Of a stretch of DNA of 64,000 bases, positions 8,615 through 13,268 are shown piece by piece; position 1 is the stretch's first letter; each line of letters begins with the position of its first letter. The notes under the pieces are model-generated. The model saw only the letters and a list, made by a program, of their open reading frames with translations. It did no database searches and had not been told where the DNA came from. The DNA is from an uncultured Coriobacteriaceae bacterium. Lineage in GTDB: Bacteria; Actinomycetota; Coriobacteriia; Coriobacteriales; Atopobiaceae. The translations under genes and the position numbers were made by a program. The stretch lies in contig CACYGL010000007.1 of NCBI GenBank assembly GCA_902773995.1, positions 1 through 64,000 on the forward strand, given 5' to 3'.

Positions 8615-9712
8615 CTACATCCGGACGGGCATCAGCATGTAGAGGTAGTTGACCTTGCCATTGGTCTTGAAGATGCCGGGCTGCATGTTGCTCTGCAGCT
8701 CCAGGACCAGCTCCTTCTTGTCGGAGATGGCGTTCACGCAGTCGAAGACGTAGTGGTAGTTGAGCGCGATGGAGAGGCTCTGGCCCTCGACCTCCACGGG
8801 CAGAAGCTCGGTGGACTCGCCTTGGTCGGGCGAGGACGCCGAGAGACGCATGACCTTGCCATCTGCATCGATGTCAAAGCGCACGGAGGCGTTAGAGATG
8901 GCCACCACAGAGACGCGCTTGAGCGCCGCGGCAAAGGCCTCGACCTCAATGTGGACCGAGGTGTTGCAGCTCGAAGGCAGGAGCTGGCGGTAGTCGGGGA
9001 AGTTCCCCTCGATCTTGCTCGAGATGAAGGTCGTGTTGCCAAAGGTGAAGACCACCTGGCTGTCGGTGGTGCCAATGGAGATGCGCTCCTCGAGGTTGGG
9101 CATCGAGAGCACGTCGTGGAAGACGGAGCCAGGTACGATGGTGCGGAACTCGCCCTCGCCGGTCTCGGCGGAGGCGTCGCAGACGGCCAGACGGTAGGAG
9201 TCCGTGGCAACAAGGCGAATGGTGTTGTTAGAGGCCGTGAGCAGGATGCCCTGCAGGATGGGGCGCGTGGTCTCCTTGGAGGTCACCTTGTAGACCTTGT
9301 CGACCATGCTGGAGAGCAGCTCGCTCGGGAGCTCCGTGGCGTCCTCGAGGGAGTACTCGGGGAACGCCGGCCAGTCAGCGGGGTTCAGGGTGTTCAGGCG
9401 GAACGAGGACTTCTCACATGAGATGGAGATGGTACGCTCCCCGCCGTCAAAGGTCACCGCAGCGTCGTCCAGCGTCTTCACGATGCTCGTGAGCATCTTG
9501 CCCGAGACGACCGTCTCGCCGGACTCCTCAACGTTTGCAGGGATGCGATGGCGGATCGTGATGGTGAGGTTGTTAGTCTGGAACTCGAGGGTTCCCTCCT
9601 CGGCCTTGATGTAGATGCCCGAGAGCAAGGGAAGGGTTGAGTTTGTCCCCATGCCCTTGGCAACGACTGACAGTGCCTTGAGAAGTGAAGACTGACTTAC
9701 GGTGAACCTCAT
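8615..9712 (-). CDS. dnaN: DNA polymerase III subunit beta (sliding clamp)
   Basis: A 365-residue clamp that tethers the replicative polymerase. The N-terminus MRFTVSQSSLLKALSVVAKG and the C-terminal LNYHYVFDCVNAISDKKELV and YLYMLMPVRM are diagnostic; three clamp domains of about 120 residues each are present. ATG at 9712 follows GAGAGGGCAGCC. It is separated from dnaA by 154 nt, AT-rich near 9720-9770, so it may have its own promoter as well as dnaA read-through. Confidence 0.97.
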   Translation of the reverse strand: MRFTVSQSSLLKALSVVAKGMGTNSTLPLLSGIYIKAEEGTLEFQTNNLTITIRHRIPANVEESGETVVSGKMLTSIVKTLDDAAVTFDGGERTISISCEKSSFRLNTLNPADWPAFPEYSLEDATELPSELLSSMVDKVYKVTSKETTRPILQGILLTASNNTIRLVATDSYRLAVCDASAETGEGEFRTIVPGSVFHDVLSMPNLEERISIGTTDSQVVFTFGNTTFISSKIEGNFPDYRQLLPSSCNTSVHIEVEAFAAALKRVSVVAISNASVRFDIDADGKVMRLSASSPDQGESTELLPVEVEGQSLSIALNYHYVFDCVNAISDKKELVLELQSNMQPGIFKTNGKVNYLYMLMPVRM

Positions 9713-9866
9713 GGCTGCCCTCTCTTATCTATTAGTTTAACAAATCTTTTTGCTCGTTTTCTTTGAGCCTGCGGTTCTCGACGGTCGAAGGCGTGTCGAT
9801 AACTCTCTCTACATTGTGCGCCCACTTTTCGAGGGTTTTCTTACGCCTTTCTCCCATCTTTTTGAC

Positions 9867-11429
9867 TTACGTGTTCTCGGTGATGTTGTCGCGGATCTGT
9901 ACTAGGCGGTCGTGATAGATCTTGTCCTCCTTGCGCTTCTTGTCCACCACACGGATGCTGTTGAGCATCGTGGCGTGGCTCCTGCCGCCAAAGTGCTCGC
10001 CAATCTCGGCGTAGGTGGCGTCGCAGAGTTCCTTGGAGAGCCACACGGCGATGTGGCGGGCATTCATGATGTCCTTGTTGCGCTTCTCGCCCACGAGGTC
10101 CGAGTGTGAGATGTCGAAGTACTGCTCCACTGCGCGCTGGATCTCCTCGATCTTGTATTGCTTCTCGCCGTTTGGCCACGACTCCTTGGCGAGCCGGTTG
10201 ATGTCCTCGCGCGAGAGTTCTTCGCCACGCTGCTCGCGGTGGGTCTCGGCGATGAGGCAGCGCTGGCAGAAGCCCTCGATCACGCGGATGTTGGTGCCCG
10301 CGCGCTCGGCCATGTAGCTTATGTTCTCTTTCGAGATGGTGCCCGTGATGGCGAGCCCCACGTGTCCCTCGGCTGCGTCCTCGTGCATGCGCTCGCAAAA
10401 GGTGGTGATGAGCCGCAGCTTGAGCTCATAGTTTGGCACCTGGATTGACGTCGAGAAGCCCGAGTCCAGGCGGCTCGTCACACGCTCGTCGAAGGCCGCC
10501 TCGGCGCCCAGTTGCGAGGGCGAGCGGTCCGCTGCCAGAACAATCTGCTTGCCGGCGCTGGTGAGATGGTTGAAGGCGTCGAAGAAGAAGTCGATGGTGC
10601 CTGCCTTACCGGCGAGCTTCTGGATGTCGTCGATGATAAGGACGTCGATGTCGTAGTAGTGGTCGCGCAGGATGTCCGGCGCCGACCTCTCGCGGTGCGA
10701 CATGGCTGTGGTGTAGTCGGTGATGAAGGACGAGCCGTCCTTGTACACGCACACGCGCGTGGGGTCGTTCGCTGAGATGTAGTTCTGGATGGCACGCAGG
10801 AGGTGCGTCTTTCCCAGGCCACTCTTGCCGTAGATGAAGAGGGGGTTGTAGGTGCGGTTCTCGCCGTTTGCCACCTGGAGCGCGGCCTGGTAGGCGAAGG
10901 TGTTCTCGTCGCCCACGACAAAGCGGTCGAAGGTGAGCTTTGAGTCCATCTCAGAGATGTCGTCCACCAGGGGGTTGGCCGCGCGGCGCTCATGGCCCGC
11001 GGCCTCGCGCGCGGCGTTCTCGTCGAGCCACGCGTCCTCGGGGGCTCGTGGCTGAGGCGTGGGCACCGCGGCCGGCGCAGGTACAGCTGCCTGCGGCGAT
11101 GGTGCCATCCACCTGCGTGCCTCCTCGGGGGTCACCGCCGAGCTTGTCGTGAGCGGCGCCGCGTCAGGATCCTGCACAAAGGAGATGTCGAGCGTGGTTG
11201 GCTCGAATGCGGCTTCGGTGAGGCATTCGTTGATAACGTTAAGGTTCTTCGAGAGGCGGTTCTTCACCGTGCGACTGTGCGTCTCTACGTGGAGCACGCC
11301 GGGATCAAGTGACACGGGCACGCAACTGCGCAGCATTGCCATGACCGAGCCAGGCAGGTGGCGTTTGCTCACCAGGTCGAACATGTCCTGCCAAACTGCC
11401 TCGGTATCTGAGTCGATCTCTGGTTCCAT
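9867..11429 (-). CDS. dnaA: Chromosomal replication initiator DnaA, divergent
   Basis: A 520-residue initiator. Domain I is about residues 1-90, a Pro/Ala-rich linker runs to about 165, the AAA+ domain carries Walker A GKSGLGKTH (201-209) and Walker B VLIIDDIQ (263-270), and domain IV is the last hundred residues. Two conserved elements deviate: the arginine-finger region reads SRLDSGFS instead of SRFGWGL, and the DNA-recognition signature is GGRSHATML (481-489) instead of GGRDH(T/S)TVL. Base-contacting positions equivalent to E. coli Asp433 and Thr435 are Ser and Ala, so a different DnaA box is expected. ATG at 11429 follows GAGAGGGACAC. A perfect -10 lies upstream. Confidence 0.95.
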   Translation of the reverse strand: MEPEIDSDTEAVWQDMFDLVSKRHLPGSVMAMLRSCVPVSLDPGVLHVETHSRTVKNRLSKNLNVINECLTEAAFEPTTLDISFVQDPDAAPLTTSSAVTPEEARRWMAPSPQAAVPAPAAVPTPQPRAPEDAWLDENAAREAAGHERRAANPLVDDISEMDSKLTFDRFVVGDENTFAYQAALQVANGENRTYNPLFIYGKSGLGKTHLLRAIQNYISANDPTRVCVYKDGSSFITDYTTAMSHRERSAPDILRDHYYDIDVLIIDDIQKLAGKAGTIDFFFDAFNHLTSAGKQIVLAADRSPSQLGAEAAFDERVTSRLDSGFSTSIQVPNYELKLRLITTFCERMHEDAAEGHVGLAITGTISKENISYMAERAGTNIRVIEGFCQRCLIAETHREQRGEELSREDINRLAKESWPNGEKQYKIEEIQRAVEQYFDISHSDLVGEKRNKDIMNARHIAVWLSKELCDATYAEIGEHFGGRSHATMLNSIRVVDKKRKEDKIYHDRLVQIRDNITENT

Positions 11430-11491: not shown

Positions 11492-11564
11492 ATTATAAGG
11501 AAAATGTTGAAAACTCTGGCTTATGAACCCCGCGAGCGTCGAGAACCACGAGAAATGTTGAAAA
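11492..11564 (-). promoter_or_regulatory. dnaA promoter with putative DnaA boxes
   Basis: On the minus strand TATAAT (11492-11497) is a perfect -10, about 63 nt before the dnaA ATG. The nonamer TTTTCAACA (11505-11513) sits in the spacer upstream of the -10, and a second identical copy lies at 11556-11564. If these are the boxes recognised by this divergent DnaA, they would allow autoregulation. The box assignment is inference. Confidence 0.55.
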
Positions 11565-11591: not shown

Positions 11592-11645
11592 GAACGACCT
11601 ACAGAAGGTTGAACGGCCTACAGAATGACGAGCGGCCTACACGAA
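11592..11645. repeat. Three direct repeats with 19-bp period next to the origin
   Basis: GAACGACCTACAGAA (11592), GAACGGCCTACAGAA (11611) and GAGCGGCCTACACGAA (11630) are spaced exactly 19 bp apart, with a weaker CCCTACATTT at about 11565. The last copy overlaps the end of the ATPase gene. They look like iterons, perhaps initiator-binding. Confidence 0.6.
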
Positions 11646-12740
11646 ATTCTGCCCCAGCTGTGTGAGGTAGTACTTTTGGCCGACTTTCTTGAGGATTCCC
11701 ATCTGCACCATGTTGGCAAGCTCTCGTGACCACGTGGGCGCAGATCTGCCGTAGGTCCGTACGAGCTCCGTGGGGCCGGCCATCTCGTGTGCCGAGAGGT
11801 ATTCGAGAATGGTCTGCGAGCGATCTGAGAGGTTAATGCGGCCAAGCTCCGCCGCCCACGCGGGAGGCTGCTGCTCCGGCGCGGGCGCGGCTGCTGGCGT
11901 TGCAGCTGGCGCTGGTGCGGGCATGGGCGCCTGCTGCTGGTAGGCCGGCTGCGGATAGCCCTGCTGAGGGTAGAACCCCTGTTGGACCTGGGGCTGCACT
12001 GGCTGATAGTACTGCTGATACCCCGGCATGTAGGGCTGCGGATAGCCACCTGGTGCCTGTTGGGAGGGGTAAGGAACCTGCCCATAGCCCAGCGGCATCT
12101 GTGGCTGTGCTGCCTGTGGTGCGGTACCCGCGGGCTTGCCAGGCGCCGCGCACCTCTCGGCGTCCTCCTTGGGCCTGGTGGAGATGGTCACCACCGTTCC
12201 GCCGGAGATGTTGTCCTCTATGGTGAGGCTGCCGCCCTTGTCGGTCATGTACTGCTGCACGTAAGGAAGACCCGACCCAACGCCACGAATGTAGTGCTTC
12301 ATCTCCTCGGTTGCGGAGGTCGTGCCATACTCCATGGCCAGGTCCTTCTCCTGGATCCCTGGTCCCTGGTCCGAGAAGCGCAGCGTGTTGCCCCCATCGA
12401 GAATCGTGATGGTGGGTGCGATGAAGTAGGCGTGGATGAAGTTCTCGACAATTTCGCGAATCACGGTGAAGGGAATCTGGCTTCCCTGCTCGTGCGCGAG
12501 GCGGTTTACGGTTGCCGTGATTTCCTCGAGGTAGCTGCGGATGTCCGTAGGTTCGATGACCACCACGCGAGGGGCCGCCGCCGCGTCGTCGTAGATGGCA
12601 ATGCGTGCGGGATAGCGCACGGCCCCAAGCTCACCCTGGGAGGCACTGCTGCCATCTTGGGAGCTCTCTGGGGACTTCTCGTCCTTCTCGCCCGCATCTT
12701 GGGGTGTGTTGTCGACGAACGGATAGAACGCGTGGTCCAT
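11637..12740 (-). CDS. GHKL-type ATPase domain protein with a C-terminal winged-helix domain, between dnaA and rpmH
   Basis: 367 residues. An acidic, Ser-rich N-terminus (1-40) precedes a histidine-kinase-like ATPase fold: N box REIVENFIHAYF (95-106), G1 FSDQGPGI (122-129) and G2 GVGSGLPYV (153-161). No dimerisation/phospho-acceptor His domain and no membrane segment are present. Residues 200-297 are a Pro/Gln/Tyr/Ala linker with PQPY-type repeats. The last 70 residues (SDRSQTILEYLSAHE ... YYLTQLGQNFV) look like a winged helix-turn-helix. ATG at 12740 has AGAGG upstream. It separates the two clusters of candidate DnaA boxes, so a role in origin control or transcription is possible. Function unknown; an anti-sigma-like ATPase is the alternative. 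Confidence 0.75.
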   Translation of the reverse strand: MDHAFYPFVDNTPQDAGEKDEKSPESSQDGSSASQGELGAVRYPARIAIYDDAAAAPRVVVIEPTDIRSYLEEITATVNRLAHEQGSQIPFTVIREIVENFIHAYFIAPTITILDGGNTLRFSDQGPGIQEKDLAMEYGTTSATEEMKHYIRGVGSGLPYVQQYMTDKGGSLTIEDNISGGTVVTISTRPKEDAERCAAPGKPAGTAPQAAQPQMPLGYGQVPYPSQQAPGGYPQPYMPGYQQYYQPVQPQVQQGFYPQQGYPQPAYQQQAPMPAPAPAATPAAAPAPEQQPPAWAAELGRINLSDRSQTILEYLSAHEMAGPTELVRTYGRSAPTWSRELANMVQMGILKKVGQKYYLTQLGQNFV

Positions 12741-13054
12741 CCCGCTTTACCTCTTGATTCTTTTCACCAGCTCTGACTTTTCAACCTCGTTTGAACCTTG
12801 GATGAAAACTTTCACTCGGATTTCTATGTGAACGAAAGTTTTCAACAACGGATGAAACATGGTTGATAACTGGGTCTAAACGTGAAATACCGGCTGGAAA
12901 ATCATAGCATCAGGAAGAAAGTTGTCAGTAGGTTGGCATGGTCTTTTCGCTCCATGGAAGATTTCTTGCAAAGCTTTTCTGCGGGGAAGCGGCTGGCGCC
13001 GAGCCCTACCATGAGACAACCCACCGAGAATCCGTGCAGTTATTCTGCATTAAA
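12741..13054. other. Candidate origin of replication region (oriC part)
   Basis: 314 bp without a gene, more AT-rich than its surroundings. It contains TTTTCACCA (12761), TTTTCAACC (12778), GGATGAAAA (12800), TTTTCAACA (12839), GGATGAAAC (12850) and GGTTGATAA (12861), that is six near-matches of TTTTCAACA or its complement within about 110 bp. No TTATCCACA box was seen. Position between the dnaA operon and rpmH and the change of gene strand support an origin. The exact unwinding site cannot be told. Confidence 0.55.
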
Positions 13055-13084
13055 TTGACATCTTGACGGAGAGACCCTTACAAT
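13055..13084 (+). promoter_or_regulatory. rpmH promoter
   Basis: TTGACA (13055-13060) is followed after 18 bp by TACAAT (13079-13084), 49 nt before the rpmH ATG. Strong consensus match. Confidence 0.8.
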
Positions 13085-13133
13085 CTTTGGGCTTAGTGCT
13101 CAAGACATTAGACCCGTATGGGAGGAATACATC

Positions 13134-13268
13134 ATGAAGCGTACGTATCAGCCCAACAAGCGTAAGCGCGCCAAGACCCACGGCTTCCGCGCCCGTATGG
13201 CCACCAAGGGTGGCCGCAAGGTTCTCGCACGTCGTCGTGCCAAGGGCCGTAAGCAGCTCACCGTCTAA
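13134..13268 (+). CDS. rpmH: 50S ribosomal protein L34
   Basis: 44 residues, beginning [18 protein letters not shown] and ending [10 protein letters not shown]: the highly basic L34 of the large ribosomal subunit. GGGAGGAATACATC precedes the ATG. It is the first gene of the rightward unit rpmH-rnpA-yidD-yidC and has its own strong promoter. Confidence 0.98.

Follow-up and report, generated by a model that had tools for sequence, protein, structure and literature searches.

Few protein-DNA pairs in bacteria are as conserved as the initiator DnaA and its box, and the dnaA locus described here raises the question of which box is recognized when the helix that reads it has changed. The window, i.e., the complete stretch of 64,000 nucleotides that was analyzed, constitutes the entire contig C7 of a 2.2-Mb assembly (G000). 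Its DnaA protein, which combines an AAA+ domain III with a DnaA-type HTH domain IV and is encoded beside dnaN, is 97-99% identical to DnaA proteins from Tractidigestivibacter/Olsenella genomes (Atopobiaceae, Coriobacteriia). In the following, the Atopobiaceae (f1), the family of the window, are compared with the sister families f3 and f2, which we infer to be the Coriobacteriaceae and the Eggerthellaceae, respectively, and with deeper families of the Coriobacteriia (cls). Features are compiled in the table.

Features of the dnaA region in the window and of the rplI-dnaB gap in the same genome (coordinates refer to the window unless stated otherwise)
Feature	Position	Strand	Evidence or remark
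dnaN ORF	8615-9712	minus	adjoins dnaA
Possible weak box TTATCGACA	9794..9802	minus	dnaA-dnaN gap; single site
dnaA, 520 aa	9867..11429	minus	ORF; Pfam Bac_DnaA 8e-47, Bac_DnaA_C 2.5e-22; DnaA relatives in PDB
Recognition-helix signature GGRSHATMLN (E. coli GGRDHTTVLH)	9960..9989	minus	sequence; alignment to E. coli numbering
N439 codon	9960-9962	minus	E. coli His439 equivalent
A435 codon	9972-9974	minus	E. coli Thr435 equivalent
S433 codon	9978-9980	minus	E. coli Asp433 equivalent
Ala codon, E. coli Pro423 equivalent	10008..10010	minus	alignment; contact list in PMC7561715
Box VII SRL (SRF elsewhere)	10467..10475	minus	sequence; only Phe lost, arginine-finger Arg kept
Predicted DnaA box TTTTCAACA	11505..11513	minus	dnaA upstream region; top enriched word in Atopobiaceae
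Predicted DnaA box TTTTCAACA	11556..11564	minus	51 bp from box at 11505
HATPase gene	11637-12740	minus	HATPase_c and C-terminal winged-helix-like match
Divergent AT-rich gap, rpmH to HATPase gene, likely replication origin	12741..13133		box cluster; class-wide boxes at same distance from dnaA
Probable weaker box TTTTCAACC	12778..12786	plus	
Predicted DnaA box TTTTCAACA	12839..12847	plus	AT-rich gap, rpmH to HATPase gene (likely oriC)
Probable weaker box TTATCAACC	12861..12869	minus	
rpmH	13134-13268	plus	
Boxes in rplI-dnaB gap	L122 2272-2326 = G000 contig C4 61770-61825		

An earlier sequence-only reading had proposed that the signature GGRDH(T/S)TV is replaced by GGRSHATML in this protein and that the altered Asp and Thr correspond to residues contacting bases in E. 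coli. Both statements hold: the altered signature is encoded inside the dnaA reading frame, and D433 and T435 belong to the six residues named as base-contacting in E. coli DnaA, i.e., R399, P423, D433, H434, T435 and H439 (PMC7561715), the recognition helix reading TnCACA (PMC5742627). The changed residues align to solved DnaA proteins without gaps, and the alignment assigns them as D433 to S, T435 to A, P423 to A and H439 to N, such that R399 and H434 are the only members of the contacting set kept in the window. The replacement of SRF by SRL in the AAA+ domain, reported in the same reading, is likewise present. It provides no evidence against ATP-dependent assembly because the arginine itself is retained, and it extends to the family, Box VII reading SR[LMIV] in 36 of 36 readable Atopobiaceae DnaA proteins and SRF in all readable proteins of f2 and f3.

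The canonical pattern TTWTCCACA does not occur anywhere on the contig, dnaA neighborhood included, just as had been claimed for the vicinity of dnaA. Its 10 scattered copies in the genome, compared with seven of the reversed control pattern, amount to background. The alternative nonamers said to cluster near dnaA are indeed found there in the form of TTTTCAACA, a word that differs from TTATCCACA at positions 3 and 6 and lies within the limit of at most two mismatches from TTATCCACA used as a criterion for DnaA boxes (PMC4285127). The genome contains eight copies: three flank dnaA, two precede dnaB and three lie at other places. At this genome rate, the Poisson probability of at least three copies within 2 kb is 6e-8, or about 7e-5 when corrected for all 2-kb stretches.

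Counting all 9-mers in dnaA flanks without assuming any motif, with a second-order Markov model of the same DNA supplying the expectation, placed TTTTCAACA first in the Atopobiaceae (69 seen vs. 0.78 expected, in 28 of 30 loci), which confirmed the anticipated enrichment of the alternative nonamer at origins; relative to neighboring DNA, the figures are 76 vs. 0.3 expected. The word also ranks first in f3 (27 in 10 loci), while it stands lower in f2, where GTTTTCCAC and TTTTCCACA lead, and TATCCACAG, TTATCCACA and TTTTCCACA are the leading words in the deeper families. Single-mismatch neighbors, each far above nearby DNA, yield the Atopobiaceae profile TTTTC(A over G, T, far over C)(A over T)CA, so that positions 6-9 read AACA, also GACA and TACA, and not the CACA core, with C at position 6 (C6) in seven of 164 sites. 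GC-rich members of the family have 4-13 copies of TTTTCAACA per genome, of which 1-4 lie at dnaA; the rplI-dnaB gap usually holds additional ones. The word is thus a 9-mer repeated in the gaps adjoining dnaA far above background. That it arises merely from the AT-richness of the intergenic DNA next to dnaA is extremely improbable: the gap between rpmH and the HATPase gene does have a GC content of 45%, compared with about 62% around it, but the excess over the Markov model of the same DNA is about 90-fold, the reversed control pattern is rare, and the spacing of the sites is conserved at a second locus.

This second locus, the gap between rplI and dnaB, contains two abutting boxes in conserved spacing, accompanied in most cases by a third one at a distance of about 33 bp. 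The site words are TTTTCAACGTTTTCAACAA in the Atopobiaceae, TTATCAACGTTTTCCACAA in f3, TTTTCCACTTTATCCACAA in f2 and TTATCCACGTTATCCACA in the class member G040, i.e., the same boxes carry CCACA in relatives and CAACA in the Atopobiaceae, which makes TTTTCAACA very probably the DnaA box of the family. One site with clade-specific letters is the strongest evidence for TTTTCAACA as the predicted DnaA box. The site is not present in every genome, several gaps in f2 and in the deeper families being short and empty. The order-wide conservation of these boxes suggests that DnaA regulates expression of the helicase gene dnaB or that the gap is a second locus bound by DnaA. In the assembly of the window, dnaB (L122 803-2124, minus strand) consists of two ORFs that overlap (803-1666 and 1663-2124), a split that could be an assembly frameshift.

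The region beside dnaA is likely the replication origin because GC skew in the complete relative G179 changes sign at dnaA: it stays positive as far as about 1.8 Mb, and along the other arm the values are for the most part negative or close to zero. Placement by GC skew, as suggested in the sequence-only reading, was clearer in G179 than in contig 1 of the relative G312, where the skew is too noisy to locate the origin. In 89 of the 90 Coriobacteriia dnaA loci examined, an origin-linked gene for a HATPase_c protein separates rpmH from dnaA. As this gene adjoins the boxes throughout the class, TTTTCAACA might be the operator of another regulator, e.g., the HATPase/winged-helix protein itself, with DnaA using some other site. 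We regard this as very improbable, given that the same sites hold canonical DnaA boxes in relatives with the same HATPase gene and that the 9-mer count revealed no other enriched word able to replace a DnaA box. Overall, TTTTCAACA can be taken almost with certainty as the DnaA box of the Atopobiaceae, and the DnaA protein of the window would accordingly be one that binds TTTTCAACA.

With regard to the protein, alignment of domain IV across the Coriobacteriia, the check proposed at the outset, established that the deviating signature is real but not peculiar to this genome. None of the 38 Atopobiaceae DnaA proteins fetched (25 genera) has D at residue 433, this position being occupied by S, T, K or V, and D433 is kept in all other families sampled, except for three f3 lineages with Asn. 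Of the 38 proteins, 33 have A at residue 435, four (genus g6) have T and one has P. On a tree of DnaA sequence without domain IV, the Atopobiaceae and f3 are sisters, and D433 was lost independently only four times. In the four g6 relatives (L218-L220, L066), residues 433-435 read SHT; TTTTCAACA boxes are scarce there and TTTTCGACA is commoner, which may reflect additional drift of the box. In the complete-looking relative G244, the sole DnaA_C match (contig C1, 513230-513361) is partial and contains an internal stop codon, representing a pseudogene, an error or a displaced dnaA.

Correlation of residue 433 with position 6 of TTWTCNACA at dnaA gave C124 A80 G8 T1 in D433 lineages, C3 A12 G4 in N433 lineages and C7 A96 G33 T28 in S/T/K/V433 lineages. 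With the loss of Asp433, C6 declines from 58 to 4%, and G or T at this position increases from 4 to 37%. The rplI-dnaB gap shows the same picture (A33 G10 T3 C0 in the Atopobiaceae, C19 A11 T1 in the others). Fisher tests return P values of 1e-16 and smaller, although such count tests ignore kinship; in an independent-pairs test, 2.5 pairs agree and 0.2 oppose, which is not significant. A6 predates the loss of Asp433, as D433-keeping sister families use both C6 and A6. An origin of the box together with the loss of D433 was therefore rejected, A6 boxes being older; T435A alone was also rejected as sufficient for the switch, f3 lineages with DHA still using C6 (6/16).

Cytosine and adenine share a major-groove amino group from which Asp can accept a hydrogen bond, while G and T have a keto group at this place. 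The counts fit an Asp433 that would read the amino group common to C and A. On this basis we propose that in an order-level ancestor A came to be tolerated beside C at position 6, with Thr435 changing to Ser or Ala, and that Asp433 was then lost in the ancestor of the Atopobiaceae. With this hydrogen-bond acceptor gone, C would no longer have been preferred and G and T would have become admissible, and the boxes at the origin and the dnaB promoter would have drifted along. The change at Asp433 would not have created the new box, since sister families with D433 intact already employ TTTTCAACA together with TTTTCCACA. Atopobiaceae DnaA binding should then center on TTTTCNACA at dnaA and dnaB, and the protein should prefer A6 and discriminate against C6 among TTTTCAACA, TTTTCGACA, TTTTCTACA, TTTTCCACA and TTATCCACA.

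Alternatively, TTTTCAACA may be the DnaA box of the family with the change at 433 incidental, the box having drifted first through order-wide relaxed recognition and residue 433 having changed for another reason or once it was unimportant. D433-keeping sister families already use TTTTCAACA, the D433 lineages L104, L224 and L085 have few or no C6 boxes, and the independent losses of D433 number only four, all of which would agree with this course of events. It is nevertheless unlikely, because C6 is nearly absent and G or T common only where D433 is lost, and because two of the three independent f3 N433 lineages also lack C6 (L086 keeps it). We therefore favor, as a likely reading, that TTTTCAACA is the main box of the organism and of the Atopobiaceae, replacing TTATCCACA, and that it is read by a helix with Asp433 changed to Ser, Thr or Lys and Thr435 to Ala. 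A causal role of residues 433 and 435 in the change at position 6 is probable, if slightly less so. The strongest form of this reading, which we put forward tentatively and with some doubt, is that Asp433 acts as a specificity gate for C or A at position 6, that its loss reset the replication code such that Atopobiaceae DnaA no longer recognizes the canonical box, and that the mixed C/A sister families represent the intermediate step. As to the suggestion that box and protein co-evolved, the top-ranking 9-mer, the letter switches at orthologous sites and the vanishing of C6 where Asp433 is lost speak well for it, while the causal order has to be revised.

The resulting series, with C6, then C6 plus A6, and finally A/G/T6 without C, is phylogenetically graded and tied to named contact residues. 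It opens the question of how the specificity of an essential initiator can change without any origin site ceasing to work, and offers a natural example, from gut bacteria of the Atopobiaceae, of a start switch that changed along with its key. Atopobiaceae origins will receive poor scores from origin finders whose default is TTATCCACA; TTTTCDACA is advisable instead. The literature searched yielded no papers on DnaA boxes of Coriobacteriia or Atopobiaceae origins.

Among known systems, DnaA from E. coli and M. tuberculosis, with TTATCCACA and TTGTCCACA as boxes, resembles the present case in domain layout, HTH, R399, H434 and clustered 9-mers beside dnaA, but in the Atopobiaceae D433, T435 and P423 are changed (H439 too in the window), position 6 is A/G/T and not C, and the core reads AACA in place of CACA. 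In the high-affinity 9-mer boxes that have been reported, CAC is retained at positions 6-8 (PMC4285127; PMC5043019), the exception found being the Mollicutes consensus TT(A/T)TC(C/A)ACA, as quoted in PMC3322544 from Cordova 2002. This consensus, in the form quoted there, allows A6 and includes TTTTCAACA; it belongs, however, to AT-rich organisms and keeps the C6 alternative, which the roughly 62% GC genome of the window nearly excludes. The joint use of C and A at position 6 is a feature of the D433 sister families and not of the Atopobiaceae, where seven C stand beside A96 G33 T28. The epsilonproteobacterial DnaA proteins with their TTCAC-core boxes likewise exhibit a clade-specific shift, with changes at residues 435 and 438-439, but they keep their own 433-434 dyad, the shift concerns position 5, and CAC is intact (PMC5043019). 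Thermotoga maritima DnaA also combines Ser at 433 (RSHPVV) with a divergent box, the 12-mer AAACCTACCACC; this 12-mer ends in ACCACC, and residue 435 is Pro and not Ala (PMC4285127). The occurrence of Ser433 with a C-containing box in this organism counts against the residue-433 reading, as do the retention of C6 in the N433 lineage L086 and the scarcity of A6 boxes in genus g6. Compared with these systems, A6 alone is not new; what is new is the near-exclusion of C6 and the acceptance of G and T, matching the loss of a residue.
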